A stretch of DNA of 46,639 nucleotides from Methanoregula sp. (GTDB lineage Archaea > Halobacteriota > Methanomicrobia > Methanomicrobiales > Methanospirillaceae): assembly GCF_003170075.1 (NCBI RefSeq), contig NZ_PMZU01000074.1, positions 1-46,639 of the forward strand. The letters run 5' to 3'. Of this stretch, positions 21,852-40,912 are shown one piece after another. A program made the translations under genes and the position numbers. Under the pieces are notes generated by a model. It saw only the letters and a list, made by a program, of their open reading frames with translations, was not told the DNA's origin and ran no database searches. How positions within the stretch are numbered: position 1 is the stretch's first letter; each line of letters starts with the position of its first letter.

Positions 21852-23531
21852 TCACAGCGTGATCTTCTTTAAGATCTGCCCGTTCTTGAAGATCGTGATC
21901 CCCCCGCCACTCTGGGAAACAACGATCCCGACGGCTTTTGTTACGCTGGTAATCGCAGCAACTGAGTTATGCCGGGTGCCCATGCCTTTTGGGAGCGTCA
22001 CCTTGCTTGAGTCCACTGTGATGTACCGTCCCGAAGCCTCGATAAAACCGTCGCCCGAAATCACGAATGCCCCGTCGAGCTGGGCGAACTCCTTGATATT
22101 TTCCTTGAGGTCGGGATTCGTGACCATTCGCATCTCGGGCTGGTGACCCTCGAATGCATTAAGCATGATCTGCCGGGATTTGGCAAGCACGTTTTTGGTA
22201 TCGCCGATCAGGAATGTCGTACCGACCGCCTTTCCTTCCCGGCCTTCGATCGAGATCTCGGTTGAGATATGGAAGACTGCATCAAAGACCTCGTCCCGCA
22301 CATCGGTATCGGACACCACCTGGTCCTTCCATGTATCGGTGCTGATCCGCACCTCGCCGGTCCGTTTCCTGTCGGTGATATCGTGACCGATACAGAGGAT
22401 TTCAACAATGTGGCCCTGCGGGTCGCGGATCGCCTTGTTGATCCATGCGATCCAGACGATGTCCCCGTTCCGGCGGGTGTTCTCGCTTACGTTGATGGCA
22501 TACCCCTCGGCGTTAAAACCCAGGTCGTTTGCCATCATTGAGAGATCGTGGCCGCCCCGGTTCTTCTCCGGCACGATCGTCCCGACAACATTCTTTCCGA
22601 CAAGGTCGCTCACTGAAAAATCGAAGAATGCCGCTGCGTAGGTATTGGTGTAGGTGATGACACCCTGCATGTCCATCCGTATGATGATGCTCTGGGCGTT
22701 CTGCATCATCTCCCGGTATTTCGCTTCGCTTTCCTTTAAGGCATCCCGCATCTTTTTCCTTTCAGATATATCGGTCACGACTAAGGTGCCGCCTTTTTTT
22801 GCGTCAAGCGGGTCGATCAGGCGGGCCTGGAGGGTACAGGCAACGACACCGCCACCAGCCCGCACGAGCTCGCATTCCGCACAACCATTTCCGAGTGCGT
22901 CCCGGTGGATCTGGAGATCCCGGCAGACCTGCCCGAACTCCTCCTCGCTCTTAAAGAGCGCCCGGACCGGTTTTCCCACAATATCGGACTCAGACATGCC
23001 TAAAAGTGCGGAAAGCGGGTGGTTTACCCATTCGACCGTGGCGTTCCGCATCTGGAAGATCCCAAGCGGCGTTGCCGAGAGGATCGCGATCAGCTGCTCG
23101 TTCTGGAGTTTGATCTCGCGCTCCGACTTCTTGCGCAGCGCTGTCTGCTTGATCAGCGTGACAAGATCTGCTGCCGGGGAACGCAGATCGGCAGTACGGG
23201 GGATGACGATCTCGGTGCCGTTATTAACCTCCTCAAAGGCAACCCGGTTCTCGCTCATACGGTTGAAGAGGATGACCGGTGTGGGGTTTCCCATGGAGCG
23301 AAGGTAGAGCAGAAACCCGATGCCGTCCATGTCAGAGACAAACTCGATCCCGTTGACTGCCGACACTTTCTCGTAGCAGACAATGACATCAAATCTCCGG
23401 CTCTTGAGTTTCTCGATTGCCAGTTTTGCGGACTGGACCACGTCCAGCTGAACTTCCCCGGTCTTCTCGAGGAACGGGCGGAACTGCACGAGAAAGTCGG
23501 TATTGTCATCGACAAACAGGACGGATATCAT
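21852..23531 (-). CDS. Pseudo-receiver / PAS / PAS / diadenylate cyclase protein
   Basis: A 559-residue signalling protein. Residues 1-128 form a response-regulator receiver (VLFVDDN) whose phospho-acceptor Asp is replaced: DVIVCY has Tyr53 there, and the usual KP Lys is Arg. Two PAS domains follow (about 143-258 and 268-390, each ending in a DISERKK or DITDRKR motif). Residues about 411-559 match the archaeal DisA_N (DacZ-type) cyclase: LDGAFVI (DGA 486-488) and GTRHNS (518-523). The catalytic RHR is RHN here. It probably makes c-di-AMP in response to a PAS-sensed signal rather than by phosphorylation. The ATG at 23531 follows GGGAG. Confidence 0.85.
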   Translation of the reverse strand: MISVLFVDDNTDFLVQFRPFLEKTGEVQLDVVQSAKLAIEKLKSRRFDVIVCYEKVSAVNGIEFVSDMDGIGFLLYLRSMGNPTPVILFNRMSENRVAFEEVNNGTEIVIPRTADLRSPAADLVTLIKQTALRKKSEREIKLQNEQLIAILSATPLGIFQMRNATVEWVNHPLSALLGMSESDIVGKPVRALFKSEEEFGQVCRDLQIHRDALGNGCAECELVRAGGGVVACTLQARLIDPLDAKKGGTLVVTDISERKKMRDALKESEAKYREMMQNAQSIIIRMDMQGVITYTNTYAAAFFDFSVSDLVGKNVVGTIVPEKNRGGHDLSMMANDLGFNAEGYAINVSENTRRNGDIVWIAWINKAIRDPQGHIVEILCIGHDITDRKRTGEVRISTDTWKDQVVSDTDVRDEVFDAVFHISTEISIEGREGKAVGTTFLIGDTKNVLAKSRQIMLNAFEGHQPEMRMVTNPDLKENIKEFAQLDGAFVISGDGFIEASGRYITVDSSKVTLPKGMGTRHNSVAAITSVTKAVGIVVSQSGGGITIFKNGQILKKITL

Positions 23532-23618
23532 CTGGAACTCCCGGGGCGTGGGCTCCCGCCTCCGGTGTATACCTATAATCTGGATATTTTGCAATAAATA
23601 GTTGACTGGACGCAGGGG

Positions 23619-24293: not shown

Positions 24294-24638
24294 TCACTTG
24301 TTGCCGGTCCCGACAATTGCAAGCTGGTACATCCAGTCCATCAGGGGATGGCAGTCCTGCACGATACATTCCAGATCGCAGGCAATGCACGGGATCAGTT
24401 CGTCCCCGGCAAGCAGGTTTTCAGGGTGTACCGGCTGGCGTCTTGCCCGAAGAAGATAGGTCTTGATCCCGTCTTTTTTGAATTCACTCCGATCGATAAG
24501 TCCGCTATCTTCCAGTTTCTTTACGATCCTTGAACATTTCCGGCTGTCCACACCCAGTTCCTTCCAGAGTTCGCACTGGAGGACACCCTCCGGTCTTGAC
24601 TGGATCAGGGTAAATGCTTCGTCTTCAGGTTCAGGCAT
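24294..24638 (-). CDS. Winged-helix regulator with a C-terminal Cys cluster
   Basis: A 114-residue protein. Residues 5-65 form a winged helix (GVLQCELWKELGVDSRKCSRIV and LEDSGLIDR), of MarR or TFIIIC B-block type. The C-terminal part holds C84-x2-C87-x3-C91-x4-C96 (CIACDLECIVQDC), a likely metal or iron-sulfur site. This suggests redox or metal sensing. The ATG at 24638 lies about 26 nt after an AT-rich box (TCTAAAATG), so a leaderless transcript is plausible. The gene lies between the Sm-like gene and the membrane protein gene. Confidence 0.75.
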   Translation of the reverse strand: MPEPEDEAFTLIQSRPEGVLQCELWKELGVDSRKCSRIVKKLEDSGLIDRSEFKKDGIKTYLLRARRQPVHPENLLAGDELIPCIACDLECIVQDCHPLMDWMYQLAIVGTGNK

Positions 24639-25041: not shown

Positions 25042-26139
25042 TCAGTCTCCTATAGATTCCCAGCGCGTTGCCAGTTTCTTTTCAACAGCCGGAAGCGTGG
25101 TGTACTCCATCTCTTCGAGTGAGAGCCGGTGAGGTTCGAAGGGACCCTGTGCACGGATCGTGTCCGCGAGCTCATTGCACCGCGCCCTGACCCGGTCAAA
25201 CCCGGGGTCATCGAACATGTCGGCCGGACCGATCAGGTTCCCATTGTTTATCTGGAAACCGAAGCAGATGACCCGGGGCGGGCCGTCAAACCGGGTGCAG
25301 TTGGCATCGCAGAGGCCGACCGGCATGAACGGGCCGTGGTGCGATCCGCGCATCCAGCCAGCGACGAGCACGGGGATGGTAAACGGCTCGATCACCTCGC
25401 CCATCGAGGGAAAGCCGCTCTGGGCCCGGACAATCATGACCGGGTCGTCCTTTCCCACGTACCGACCGGCCAGCATATTGAGGCGCTGGGTGCTTGTCGA
25501 TGCAGCGATGGTCCCGTCCTTTTTAAACACGTGCTTGATCACGTACCGTGACGGGGCGCCTATGTAGGCGAGCAGGCTGTAACTCTCTTCGGGGCAGGTG
25601 AATTTGATCCTGCGCTTTTTGATGAGATCGTGGACCTCAAAAACAAAACCCTCGTGCAGGGACGGGTCGATGACAAGGCCGGCGGTGTTGAACGGGTCGG
25701 CAAAGATCTTGTACAGGTAGAAGTTCCACGCGCCGGGTTCGGTCTTGTCGGCCATAAAGACCATGACCGGATCGGAACCACGCTCCTCGAATTCCATCTC
25801 GGCAACGCCCGGGCCCATGCCCTTGACATTCCCCGAGAACGCATCGGCGAGCATGTCCTGGCCTGCACCATAGAGCTTGAGGCTTTTTGCGATCTTCGTG
25901 CATTCCATGAAGACTTCCCACGCAAGCTTGTGGACCTTCTCGTTGTCGACCCCGTGGGTGTGGGTCATGATCAGTTCGAGGTCGTCACCGCAGTGGGTGA
26001 CAAAGGAGTCGGTTAAGAGTTTGCCCTTCTCGGCCCTGAGCATCTGTGCCGCTTTTTCAAGCAGCTTGGGGTGGGTGCGGGAGTGGCCGGGAAAACTCCC
26101 TACATCCGCTTTAATGACAGAGATCGTGGTCTTTGGCAT
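25042..26139 (-). CDS. Fructose-1,6-bisphosphate aldolase/phosphatase
   Basis: A 365-residue bifunctional gluconeogenic enzyme typical of archaea. It condenses triose phosphates to fructose bisphosphate and removes a phosphate, giving fructose 6-phosphate. The family signature is near the N-terminus: SVIKADVGSFPGHSRTHP, with metal-binding Asp and His, and CGDDLELIMTHTHG. Further conserved parts are YGAGQDML, KTEPGAWN and the C-terminal GFQINNG. Length is normal. It is third in the cluster after class I FBPase and a class II-type aldolase, 75 nt from the latter, which makes it enzymatically redundant with both. Confidence 0.95.
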   Translation of the reverse strand: MPKTTISVIKADVGSFPGHSRTHPKLLEKAAQMLRAEKGKLLTDSFVTHCGDDLELIMTHTHGVDNEKVHKLAWEVFMECTKIAKSLKLYGAGQDMLADAFSGNVKGMGPGVAEMEFEERGSDPVMVFMADKTEPGAWNFYLYKIFADPFNTAGLVIDPSLHEGFVFEVHDLIKKRRIKFTCPEESYSLLAYIGAPSRYVIKHVFKKDGTIAASTSTQRLNMLAGRYVGKDDPVMIVRAQSGFPSMGEVIEPFTIPVLVAGWMRGSHHGPFMPVGLCDANCTRFDGPPRVICFGFQINNGNLIGPADMFDDPGFDRVRARCNELADTIRAQGPFEPHRLSLEEMEYTTLPAVEKKLATRWESIGD

Positions 26140-26214
26140 AAGCGTTCACAGTATGAGATAGCCCCTACACACTAAAAGATTGTGGAAAAAATGAGATGTT
26201 GGGATATGGGGGGG

Positions 26215-27354
26215 TCAGTGTAAAACTTTCCTGATGACTGACGCCGTGTCGTACGACCCGAACGCCCTGAAAAAGACCAGGCTTTCCGCGTAGGCCATTG
26301 CCTGCATGGCCTTGTTGGTCTCTTCATCGACAGAATAAATTTCTTTATAGAATTCCTTTATGGCGTTCTTGCAGTTGCCGTCAATGATCTGGCGATCTTT
26401 TTTGCCGGGATTTGTGGGCCGGTATTTCTCCAGTGTCCAGTCCATGATATCCTTGTAGAGGACAGGTTCATAGATCTTCAGGGTGCCAAACGCCACGTCC
26501 TGCCAGAAGGTCCCGACATTGCCCTTGATGATGTCGCCTTTGGGGAAGTGCAGGTTGATGAGATCCCGGGGGGTGCCGGTGATGCCGTGCTGGGCGATGC
26601 CGACATGCAGGTTGTTGTCCCGGAGGGCTTTTGCAATTGCCTTTGTCTGGGGGATATCGATGGAGAGCTGTTCGATGACGTTCCCGTTCGCGTCGTATGT
26701 GTGGCCGTGCGAGCTGCCGTTTGCGATGGCAAGCACGTGAGGGTGGACATCGTTTTCGCTGAGGGCTTTGATGAACTCGACGGCCTCCTCCGGCCGGGTC
26801 AGGACAAGACCTTCCGTGTCTTTTCTCCCGATCTCCCCAACTTCCACTTCAAGACCGAATTCCTTCCCGTACATTTTCTGCCGGATATAGCGGGCAAGGT
26901 CCGAGGTGACCCGGATATTCTCCTCCAGCTCTTCCCGGACATTTTTCCCTTCGAAGTTAAAGATGTGCGACGCATCGATGGCAAAAGAGGTGTACCCGGC
27001 TTTTACCTGCGCATCGATCAGCTGCTTTGTCCCCTCGACTTCAGCGGCATCGCCTTTCTTGATTGTGATGTGATCCGCGTGGAGCGCCCAGACGTCACAA
27101 CCGGTCGCCTTTGCCGCTGCATTCATCTTTTCCGAGAATACCTGTGGCGTCATCCCGGTGTATCCCCCTTTGAGATCGGATTCGGACCGGGCAAGTTCCA
27201 TGAAAACCGCAGAATCGGAATCTTTTGCTGCCTTGAAAATTCCCTCGGCGACGGTTGCGATCCGGGTATTTGCCGCCATGATAATGGCTTTCTTACCGGA
27301 AATTCCGTTGAAAATGGTCGAACCGGGGATTGGACCAAAGGTTTGTGCGTTCAT
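26215..27354 (-). CDS. Class II fructose-bisphosphate aldolase-like protein
   Basis: A 379-residue protein of the zinc-dependent class II aldolase family. Zinc ligands are visible in ALHADHI and AQHGITG, and the phosphate loop in NVGTFWQD. The expected substrate is fructose 1,6-bisphosphate or a related ketose bisphosphate such as sedoheptulose or tagatose bisphosphate. The ATG at 27354 is preferred because GTGAGGA sits just before it; a GTG four codons upstream would overlap that site. It lies 22 nt after the FBPase stop. The type is more usual in bacteria, so transfer is possible. Confidence 0.82.
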   Translation of the reverse strand: MNAQTFGPIPGSTIFNGISGKKAIIMAANTRIATVAEGIFKAAKDSDSAVFMELARSESDLKGGYTGMTPQVFSEKMNAAAKATGCDVWALHADHITIKKGDAAEVEGTKQLIDAQVKAGYTSFAIDASHIFNFEGKNVREELEENIRVTSDLARYIRQKMYGKEFGLEVEVGEIGRKDTEGLVLTRPEEAVEFIKALSENDVHPHVLAIANGSSHGHTYDANGNVIEQLSIDIPQTKAIAKALRDNNLHVGIAQHGITGTPRDLINLHFPKGDIIKGNVGTFWQDVAFGTLKIYEPVLYKDIMDWTLEKYRPTNPGKKDRQIIDGNCKNAIKEFYKEIYSVDEETNKAMQAMAYAESLVFFRAFGSYDTASVIRKVLH

Positions 27355-27376
27355 GCTGATCCTCACTTGAGTATAC

Positions 27377-28279
27377 TTATCCTTCCCTCATATATTTTTC
27401 AATCTGGCCAATCTCTTTTTTGCCACCGATGTAGATGGGCGTTACCTGATCGATCGCTTCCGGTGTAATCTCCCGGTAATCGGTTCTCCCGTTGCTGACT
27501 GCCCCGCCTGCTTCGCAGACAATCATACCCATGGGGTTTGCCTCATACAGGATCCGCAGTTTTCCCTTTTCCTTTCCCTTGTATCCCGGATAGGTGAACA
27601 CCCCACCCTTGTGGAGGATCTGGTGGACGTCTGCGACAAAACAGCCGCTGAACCTGAGCTTGTAGCCGGCGTTTTCAAGATCGTTGATCCACCGGGCGTG
27701 AGCCGGGAGCCAGTCCCTGCGCAGCGCCCCGGGCGCGTAAATCTTCCCGTCCGGGATCCGGATATCTTTCCCGCGCAGCACAAATTCGCCGGACTCATCT
27801 CTCACAAATTCATGGACGCCGTGTCCGGTGGTAATGGTCAGGAGAGTGAGGGGCCCGTACAGCATATACAGGGCGGCGATCATGGCCGAGCCTTTTGTAA
27901 GGACATGGCCGGGATAAATGCCGATGATGGAGCCAACGCAGAGGTTCACATCAAGGAGCGAGGAGCCGTCAAGGGGATCGATAACGACGCCGAAATTATT
28001 CTTTGCGTTGTTGACCTCAATGATCGTATCCTGCTCTTCGGTTGCGATGTACCGGACAAGGCGGGATTTCTTGAGACTTTGGACAAACACGTCATCGGCA
28101 TACTTGTCAAGGGGCTTCTGGTCTTCGCCAAACATGTTCCGGGTACCGCAGGCCGAGATATTCATGCAGGTCGTAAGGAAGCCTTTTTTTACCGGATCTG
28201 CCTGTTCGCTTAAAAACAGGATGAGTTCAGCGAGGGTTTTTTCCGTTCCGGATTGTGTAAGGAAATCTTTGAGAATCAT
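27377..28279 (-). CDS. fbp: Fructose-1,6-bisphosphatase, class I
   Basis: A 300-residue phosphatase. The metal site signature VIDPLDGSS is clear, with Glu residues in TEEQD, and substrate-binding [11 protein letters not shown] and the C-terminal [12 protein letters not shown]. Class I FBPase is widespread in bacteria and eukaryotes and patchy in archaea. The ATG at 28279 follows GGTGG with a 4-nt gap; the GTG three codons earlier lies inside that site. It is first in the cluster and has a leader hairpin (28324-28343). Confidence 0.92.
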
Positions 28280-28323
28280 AACTACCACCGGATCCCGCCA
28301 CTATGGGCGTTTCTCCCCGAATT

Positions 28324-38938: not shown

Positions 38939-39070
38939 TAACATAATCTTCAGGTAACCATTCATGGTACACGCAGCACTGCCGCGTGCGTACAACGTTG
39001 AACGATACAACATATAAAAAATAAGCCGCTTACCTATATCGTCCGTTTCGCTTGCGTGTGGAGAGAGAAA

Positions 39071-40912
39071 ATGCAGACAGATACTGATATTATCGTTTAC
39101 CGGCTGGCCGCGGGCTGCGACCTGTCCGATGTCGAAGAAGGAAAAATCTATCTTGGGAAAGTCCAGGGTTTTGCAACATTCGGGATGTTTGTCCAGCTCA
39201 ACGACCGGATCAAGGGACTTGTGCACAAGACAAGCATGAAAGCCGATCACAAGGAAAAAGACAGCGTCCTCGTACGGGTCCGACAGATCCGCCCCAACGG
39301 AAATATCGATCTTGAAGAACTGCTGATCCCGGTCTACCAGGTCCAGCAGGTCGAACGCACGTCAACGACTGTCAGGATCGCAGATCTTGCTACAAAACAG
39401 GGAAAGACCGTGGCCATTGAGGGCGAGGTCGCCCAGATCAAACAGACAAGCGGGCCCACGATCTTTACCATTGTGGATGAGTCAGGTACCCAGAACGTTG
39501 CAGCATTCATTGAAGCCGGTGTCCGGGCCTATCCTGAGGTCGAGCTCAACATGATCGTGAAAGTTATCGGCGAGGTCATGATGCGCAACAATCAGCTCCA
39601 GATAGAAGCCGATGCGGTTGCCGCACTCGCCGGTGATGAAGAGACGACCGTCCGGGTGCGGATTGATACAGCGCTCGATGCACGCGCCGAACCGGAGACC
39701 ATTAAGCCGCTTGTGAAAAGCGACGTGCTCGACAGCCTGATGCCCGAGATGCGGAAGGTTGCAAAGATCATCAGAAAAGCGGTCTTTACTGCGCAGCCGA
39801 TCATCCTTCGGCACCACGCGGATGCTGACGGCATCTGTTCGGCGGTCGCCATAGAACAGGCGGTTGTCGCGCTTATCAAGGAGTCGGGCGGGGACTTTGA
39901 CGCCGACTACTACCTCTTCAAGAGGGCCCCGTCAAAGGCTCCATTCTACGAGATTGAGGATATCACAAGGGATCTTGACTTCGCGCTCAAAGACCACGCA
40001 CGGTTCGGCCAGAAGATGCCTCTTGTGATCCTTACCGACAACGGTTCGACAGAGGAGGACGAAGCGTCCTACAAGATCGCAAGCGTCTACGATATCCCGT
40101 TTGTCGTTATCGACCACCACCACCCGGATGCGACCATCGACAAGTACCTTGTCGGGCACGTCAACCCGTACCATGTTGGCGGGGACTTTGGGGTAACGGC
40201 CGGGATGCTCGGGACCGAAGTCGCTCGGTTGATCAACCCCAAGGTTGAGCCCATCATCAAACACCTCCCGGCGATTGCCGGTGTCGGTGACCGGAGCGAG
40301 GCGCCCGAGCGGGCCCTGTATCTCGCGCTCGTAAGCGACCAGTACTCCGAGCAGACCTGCAAGGACATCGCGCTTGCGCTTGATTACGAGCAGTTCTGGC
40401 TCCGGTTCAATGACGGTCGGGAGATCGTCAAAGACATACTTAACCTGGTCGGGAACAAGGAACGCCATACAAAACTGGTCAACCTCCTTGTCGAAGGGGC
40501 AAATAAGATGATCGAGGACCAGTTGAGTGCCTGCATGCCGCATGTCGTCTCGAGGATCCTGCCAAACGCTGCGCACCTCTTCCTGATCGATGTGGAGATC
40601 CACGCCCACAAGTTCACCTTCCCGCCACCCGGTAAGACTTCTGGTGAGGTTCACGATCTGCTCTGTAAACAGAACGAAGGAGAGTCGGTCGTCACGATCG
40701 GTTTTGGCCCGGACTTTGCCGTGCTGCGCTCCAAGGGCGTGCATATGAACATCCCCCGTATGGTCCGTGACCTGCATAACGAGATCCCCGGCGGCGGAAT
40801 CTCGGGCGGCGGACATCTGGTGGTCGGCAGCATCAAGTTCGTGGAGGGCATGCGCGAAGTGGTGCTCGAGGCTCTTATCAGGAAGATCGGCGACGCACCG
40901 GTACAGCAGTGA
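39071..40912 (+). CDS. DHH-family protein with S1 and OB-fold domains (RecJ-like)
   Basis: A 613-residue nucleic-acid enzyme candidate. Residues about 20-85 form an S1 domain (GKIYLGKVQGFATFGMFVQL), residues about 110-190 an OB-fold (VAIEGEVAQI), then a DHH domain with RHHADADG (about 246) and DHHHPD (about 345), and a DHHA1 end with PGGGISGGGH. Archaeal RecJ-like proteins in this group include GINS-associated nuclease and 3' exonucleases acting on mismatched or RNA ends. The first motif is a variant (HHADAD). The ATG at 39071 follows GGAGAGAG. The substrate is unproven. Confidence 0.85.
   Translation: MQTDTDIIVYRLAAGCDLSDVEEGKIYLGKVQGFATFGMFVQLNDRIKGLVHKTSMKADHKEKDSVLVRVRQIRPNGNIDLEELLIPVYQVQQVERTSTTVRIADLATKQGKTVAIEGEVAQIKQTSGPTIFTIVDESGTQNVAAFIEAGVRAYPEVELNMIVKVIGEVMMRNNQLQIEADAVAALAGDEETTVRVRIDTALDARAEPETIKPLVKSDVLDSLMPEMRKVAKIIRKAVFTAQPIILRHHADADGICSAVAIEQAVVALIKESGGDFDADYYLFKRAPSKAPFYEIEDITRDLDFALKDHARFGQKMPLVILTDNGSTEEDEASYKIASVYDIPFVVIDHHHPDATIDKYLVGHVNPYHVGGDFGVTAGMLGTEVARLINPKVEPIIKHLPAIAGVGDRSEAPERALYLALVSDQYSEQTCKDIALALDYEQFWLRFNDGREIVKDILNLVGNKERHTKLVNLLVEGANKMIEDQLSACMPHVVSRILPNAAHLFLIDVEIHAHKFTFPPPGKTSGEVHDLLCKQNEGESVVTIGFGPDFAVLRSKGVHMNIPRMVRDLHNEIPGGGISGGGHLVVGSIKFVEGMREVVLEALIRKIGDAPVQQ

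Follow-up and report, generated by a model that had tools for sequence, protein, structure and literature searches.

The stretch of DNA analysed here (the window) comprises 46,639 nucleotides of contig NZ_PMZU01000074.1 from Methanoregula sp. (assembly GCF_003170075.1) and carries on its minus strand a gene for a predicted diadenylate cyclase (DAC) preceded by a sensory arm. The enclosing open reading frame spans 21852..23594 (minus strand); translation from the ATG at 23531, whose methionine is also the start used by most orthologues in our comparison, gives a protein of 559 amino acids (MISVLFVDDN...ILKKITL). The features of the locus, with the evidence for each, are:

21852..23531, minus strand: coding sequence, 559 aa, in the order pseudo-receiver, PAS, PAS, DAC (ORF calling and Pfam)
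23184..23531, minus strand: aspartate-less receiver (pseudo-receiver), residues 1-116 (Pfam Response_reg and AlphaFold model)
23373..23375, minus strand: Tyr53 codon (TAC) at the phospho-Asp position (alignment to kinase paralogues)
23334..23360, minus strand: 9-residue insert, approximately residues 58-66, in the β3-α3 loop, with an NGIEF repeat that makes its edges ambiguous (alignment)
23196..23198, minus strand: Arg112 at the conserved Lys position (alignment)
23073..23183, minus strand: long helix, residues 117-153, from the receiver to PAS1, a probable signalling helix (DSSP on the model)
22761..23099, minus strand: PAS1, residues 145-257 (Pfam PAS stretch and structural match to 3mqo)
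22371..22721, minus strand: PAS2, residues 271-387 (PF00989, E 3.3e-17; matches to the PAS domains of FixL and RpfR)
21861..22331, minus strand: DAC (diadenylate cyclase) domain, residues 401-557 (PF02457 and structural matches to DisA and CdaA)
22068..22076, minus strand: DGA motif, residues 486-488 (sequence)
21966..21980, minus strand: GTRHN motif, residues 518-522 (sequence)
24294..24638, minus strand: small winged-helix protein (B-block_TFIIIC/MarR-like), upstream of the cyclase gene (context)

The original prediction of a receiver and two PAS domains fused to a diadenylate cyclase was borne out by both Pfam searches and structure models. Response_reg (PF00072) matched the N-terminal part with an E-value of 2.2e-7 (31.5 bits against a cut-off of 30.2), PAS (PF00989) was found twice (62.9 bits against 22.6), and DAC (PF02457) matched residues 428-553 of a 560-residue translation with an E-value of 2.5e-19 (69.5 bits against 27), all three scores lying above their cut-offs. 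The DGA and GTRH motifs are present at the C-terminal end, where the third residue of the RHR motif is Asn, as first claimed. Since a full-length match (at least 871 bits) was found in 67 of 108 genomes of the family, one of the 67 with an in-frame TAG, a chance joining of the domains can be excluded.

A full-length AlphaFold model based on 42 sequences (mean pLDDT 83.6, pTM 0.62) shows the receiver, the two PAS domains and the DAC domain in this order, with a 37-residue helix between the receiver and PAS1 and another helix between PAS1 and PAS2; with this pTM and with weak pLDDT at residues 324-343, the model does not fix the arrangement of the domains. In structural alignments, the DAC part matched DisA (9y9y_D) with Z 13.7 and an rmsd of 2.6 Å over 130 residues and CdaA (8c4n_B) with Z 13.6 and an rmsd of 2.6 Å over 128 residues, the DisA and CdaA rows overall giving Z of 12.3-13.7, while PAS1 (residues 145-257) matched 3mqo with Z 14.4 (rmsd 2.4 over 112). 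Residues 1-140 modelled alone (pLDDT 87.7) matched solved receivers at Z 12.2-13.9 and rmsd 2.1-3.7 Å, and all of the best 50 matches listed for this N-terminal model were receiver-containing proteins. A BFVD search with the receiver returned a general receiver match and nothing further.

The genome of the window (1.92 Mb, 96.8% complete) contains one DAC domain, that of the receiver-PAS-PAS-DAC (REC-PAS-PAS-DAC) fusion. Exactly one DAC was found in 25 of 33 genomes of the genus, and in all 25 it belongs to this fusion, which is intact and full-length in 22, carries an in-frame TAG in G121, is a contig-end fragment in G131 and is broken in G196. The fusion genes of G196 (L030) and G121 (L048) are interrupted by a stop or frameshift, with no other DAC in either genome, and an assembly error is likely. 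The other eight genomes of the genus comprise seven with two or three DACs and one (G194) with none, its fusion being cut off before the DAC domain. Named relatives come from Methanoregula, Methanolinea and other Methanoregulaceae or Methanomicrobiales assemblies. A DAC was present in 196 of the 199 genomes of the class survey, and 42 of 392 archaeal genomes surveyed had no DAC at all; since some archaeal genomes do without a DAC, sole-copy status is no proof of need. DacZ_A was found in 2 of 108 family genomes (1 of 59 good genomes) with a profile that matches just one of 14 control genomes and fails to detect Haloferax and M. jannaschii. The view that most known archaeal cyclases have other sensory domains or none, expressed in the original prediction, holds for archaea at large but not for the family of the window, where fused DACs are the rule and DacZ_A is nearly absent.

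In a quick tree of DAC domains, fused DACs were split from DacZ-type and short DACs with an SH-aLRT of 97, and in a careful tree the same split received 99/97; tree building used 72 of 198 DAC matches, less than 85% identical to each other, domains shorter than 140 aa having been removed before the 198. A single origin of the REC-PAS-PAS-DAC proteins (clade A) is weakly supported, with 80 SH-aLRT in the quick tree and 57/43 in the careful one, where 56% of 200 bootstrap trees agreed. The fused side of the tree carries receiver-PAS-PAS, other N-terminus-PAS-PAS, TPR, PKD, MIT and AAA arms, and this distribution suggests that one DAC clade has received different arms by exchange. Among other fused DACs from the archaeal family of the window, TPR accompanies the DAC in L002, L006, L007, L010 and L026, and PKD in L046 and L051; several of these TPR/PKD proteins begin with a signal-peptide-like or Thr/Pro-rich stretch.

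The sole DAC of genome G007, which we take to be Methanoregula boonei 6A8, has the REC-PAS-PAS-DAC architecture, and its full-length alignment with the window protein shows 86% identity (L036). Braun et al. 2019, who credit the archaeal classes DacV to DacZ to Corrigan and Gruendling 2013, assign M. boonei A7I8S2 to DacX, Methanospirillum hungatei to DacW and Methanosphaerula palustris to DacV (PMC6741144). By the single-DAC argument and the presumed identity of G007, the window protein probably belongs to the DacX class, for which that listing gives a class name and accessions; it would thus be a new member of a class already on record. In the literature searched, we found neither a functional study or description of this class beyond the listing nor an enzyme assay, ligand, structure or mutant.

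DacZ/CdaZ of Haloferax volcanii and Methanocaldococcus jannaschii resembles the window protein in its DAC fold, in the DG[A/V/M/I] and RH core and in being a soluble archaeal enzyme, as is predicted here. It differs in its DacZ_A/PK_C-type N-domain, which the window protein lacks, and in its motif, the DacZ-type sequences compared having GGRH[R/L/V] or GARHM where the group of the window has GTRH[N/S/A/V]; with NF041371, whose cut-off is 430 bits, the window protein reaches 110.7 bits, and it lies outside the DacZ group in the tree. With bacterial DisA, CdaA and CdaS it shares the DAC fold, DGA and Arg-His, but it has Asn for the third Arg of RHR. The helix-hairpin-helix or transmembrane parts of these bacterial enzymes are unrelated to its sensory arm.

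Residues 1-392 of the window protein are homologous to the arm of five REC-PAS-PAS-PAS histidine kinases found in genomes of the genus (L179-L183; best E-value 1.4e-55). Unlike the window protein, these kinases keep the Asp, Thr and Lys of the receiver, are devoid of the 9-residue insert and have an HATPase rather than a DAC as output (HATPase_c in five of five). Alignment to these receiver-intact paralogues confirmed the two substitutions noted in the original prediction, i.e., Tyr53 for the phospho-Asp (ISDYQMP versus VCYEKVS) and Arg112 for the Lys, and revealed Asn90 in place of the switch Thr, the acidic pair DD being retained. The Lys-to-Arg change was ruled out as a family mark, since 18 of 42 A1 rows have K in column 112 and 12 have R.

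The loss of the phosphorylation site extends over the family. Asp occupies the site in five of five related REC-PAS-PAS histidine kinases versus none of 82 distinct receiver-bearing DAC proteins, in which the column reads Y 63, C 5, H 4, F 2, R 2, L 2, G 2, E 1 and P 1. Identical rows, proteins with fewer than 380 aa before the DAC and L007, L010, L026, L046, L051 and L176, which have no receiver, were dropped from these counts, and the receiver alignment is uncertain in divergent rows outside clade A. As judged from the alignment, loss of the Asp is ancestral among receiver-bearing DACs, and the earlier claim that output is not controlled by phosphorylation is well supported for the family as a whole. 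In one divergent relative (L166:2198-3898, plus strand), Glu is aligned at the phospho-Asp position and could mimic the phosphorylated state.

Clade-A proteins carry, after the Tyr and between β3 and α3, a 9-residue insert that repeats NGIEF and that the first reading of the sequence had missed. In the receiver model, helix α3 begins at residue 70, at the second NGIEF copy, and a strand takes the place of α4. According to a 2025 review, the β3-α3 loop is often different in pseudo-receivers, and those that bind ligands often use such regions (PMC12632262).

Nei-Gojobori dN/dS values between the window protein and L036 were 0.195 for REC, 0.143 for PAS1, 0.053 for PAS2 and 0.040 for DAC; the corresponding values against L099 were 0.133, 0.097, 0.056 and 0.041, and in the comparison with L037 the dS of REC and PAS2 had reached saturation. 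By these estimates, purifying selection still acts on the receiver, which is not decaying; PAS1 and REC, evolving faster than DAC, may be scaffold. Sequence and model together identify the domain as a pseudo-receiver, a receiver fold without the Asp that is kept under selection.

Of 30 clade-A loci longer than 8 kb, 23 contain a homologue of the upstream winged-helix gene; the length filter excluded L037 and L038 from the count. Further upstream (25042..28288, minus strand) lie in a row genes for FBPase_3, a class II fructose-bisphosphate aldolase and a second FBPase, an arrangement conserved in Methanoregula-type loci. Chromosomal linkage was dropped as a functional clue, the FBPase/aldolase/FBPase and winged-helix genes being conserved mainly in Methanoregula-type genomes.

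To our knowledge, the signals that control c-di-AMP synthesis are poorly known, above all in archaea. Here, the sole cyclase of many genomes carries two PAS domains and a pseudo-receiver on the same chain, so that the search for the input can concentrate on a single protein, and the interest of the cyclase lies in this built-in sensor arm and in an archaeal pseudo-receiver ready for testing. According to the 2025 review, Asp is missing from 10-15% of archaeal receivers, and its authors state that they are aware of no published functional study of any archaeal pseudo-receiver (PMC12632262). The main text of a census of archaeal two-component systems contains none of the terms DisA, c-di-AMP, cyclase and diadenylate (PMC5847659).

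One can expect the window protein to be a cytosolic, sensor-type diadenylate cyclase, the sole DAC found in its genome. The C-terminal DAC domain would convert two ATP into c-di-AMP once two DAC domains face each other, and the N-terminal arm would keep the protein dimeric or oligomeric through its long helices. A ligand or the redox state of a PAS domain, most likely PAS2, would then switch the DAC domains from a non-productive to a productive arrangement or back, and the receiver, having lost phosphotransfer, would now serve as a phosphorylation-independent module for dimerisation, docking or ligand binding. DAC activity is described as requiring head-to-head dimers, which the partner protein GlmM blocks in controlling CdaA (PMC8573169), and dimerisation, partners or ligands are named as common modes of pseudo-receiver action (PMC12632262). 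PAS-dependent repositioning of the DAC domains is the simplest model, because such arms dimerise and relay signals in kinases. We infer cyclase activity, gating through the oligomer, ligand sensing by the PAS domains and a role of the pseudo-receiver, and we consider it reasonably probable that the reading as a whole is correct, in which the PAS arm gates an active cyclase by way of the DAC-DAC arrangement and the pseudo-receiver works independently of phosphorylation. Control of output by PAS-sensed signals and protein contacts, as first proposed, is plausible.

As for what PAS2 might bind, a heme-type domain with a FixL-like His was unsupported, though DosP and FixL top the Foldseek list: no fixed cofactor-binding residue was found in PAS2 in the alignment, position 328 being His in 22 of 42 A1 rows. 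The same observation is what one would expect if the cyclase were constitutive and its output set by gene expression alone, with the REC-PAS-PAS arm serving as a passive oligomerisation scaffold without a ligand. The weaker constraint on REC and PAS1 than on DAC fits such a scaffold, and the winged-helix gene upstream in most of the longer clade-A loci fits control by expression. However, PAS2 is constrained nearly as strongly as DAC, the arm is homologous to the input arms of histidine kinases, and the TPR, PKD and MIT arms of related DACs suggest that input modules have been exchanged. We regard the passive arm as unlikely, although it is the foremost of the alternatives.

Next comes the possibility that the DAC is active and receives its main signal from a partner protein that docks on the pseudo-receiver, the PAS domains being dimerisation relays only. 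There are precedents in the control of CdaA by bound GlmM (PMC8573169) and in the FrzS pseudo-receiver, which is reported to work by protein contact (PMC12632262). Yet outside Methanoregula-type genomes no partner gene in the neighbourhood is conserved beside the cyclase gene, and we hold this explanation, too, to be rather improbable.

A further thought, compatible with a role for the PAS pair, is speculative. The pseudo-receiver of ShkA is reported to bind c-di-GMP, and that of CikA quinones (PMC7010744, PMC12632262). PleD and ShkA resemble the window protein in combining a second-messenger enzyme or kinase with receiver-like domains and control by dimerisation or a ligand (PMC12632262, PMC7010744), but their messenger is c-di-GMP, their catalytic fold is another one, and PleD keeps one phosphorylated receiver. 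By analogy with ShkA, the pseudo-receiver, its β3-α3 loop reshaped by the conserved 9-residue insert, might be a small-molecule allosteric site acting together with the PAS domains, perhaps one for feedback by the product c-di-AMP; we give this little credence. If it were true, one protein would sense, integrate and limit the whole cellular supply of c-di-AMP; a single cue could act on a second messenger and on a phosphorelay alike, since histidine kinases of the genus bear a homologous REC-PAS-PAS arm; and for the first time the function of an archaeal pseudo-receiver would be known.

Returning to the cyclase domain, which the favoured reading takes to be active, one may ask whether RHN abolishes catalysis and leaves a pseudo-enzyme that regulates by binding ATP or c-di-AMP. 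Replacement of RHR by AAA is reported to have abolished both ATP binding and activity of M. tuberculosis DacA (PMC3328451). That change alters all three residues, however, and the third varies across archaea, so that RHN gives no ground for calling the enzyme dead: in 154 distinct archaeal DAC domains, the third residue was N in 46, S in 31, A in 22, R in 16, M in 16, V in 12, L in 9 and T in 1, the motif not being found in 1. It is thus other than Arg in 137 of the 153 domains with the motif, including about half of the DacZ-type ones. RHN was set aside as a sign of inactivity, Arg occurring in only 16 of the 154 sampled domains, and the concern of the original prediction that it might inactivate the enzyme was not upheld by this comparison of homologues. 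On the sequences compared, archaeal DACs are not defined by the third residue, which is therefore unsuited for calling them inactive. Because this residue varies freely, the dN/dS of the DAC domain is about 0.04 and the genome has no other DAC, cyclase inactivity appears unlikely; DGA and Arg-His are also kept, and the pseudo-enzyme can be considered very improbable.

Persistence of two-component control through phosphorylation of the receiver at another residue (for instance Asp8 or Asp9 of the acidic pair, or a Ser or Tyr targeted by other kinases) is the least credible explanation, since, although Asp9 is invariant in 42 of 42 A1 rows, 18 of the 42 have His at the first acidic position, the Asp, Thr and Lys positions are all changed in the window protein, the β3-α3 loop is remodelled by the insert, and α4 is modelled as a strand.

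Several genes outside the cyclase locus deserve mention. TrkA_C (RCK_C) gave four matches in the genome of the window, including the antiporter L207, and these proteins are candidate targets of c-di-AMP. On contig C11 of the same genome, a 521-aa TrkA_N-DHH-DHHA1 fusion (L210:961-2526, minus strand) is a candidate c-di-AMP phosphodiesterase that also carries a nucleotide-binding domain. The window itself encodes, at 39056..40912 on the plus strand, a RecJ-like protein of 618 aa with S1, OB-fold and DHH parts.

Among the fused DACs of Methanoperedens, L175 (4722-5471, plus strand) has an N-terminal MIT-like domain (PF04212, E-value 2.6e-6, below the cut-off), and the N-terminus of L178 (4707-5456, plus strand) resembles it by eye. 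A 597-aa protein of Candidatus Methanoperedens (L176:932-2725, plus strand) joins a Vps4-type AAA ATPase (PF00004, E-value 6.2e-38; Vps4_C, E-value 1.2e-4) to a C-terminal DAC, and its N-terminus, by eye, is also MIT-like; a cyclase joined to an ESCRT-type ATPase would be striking.
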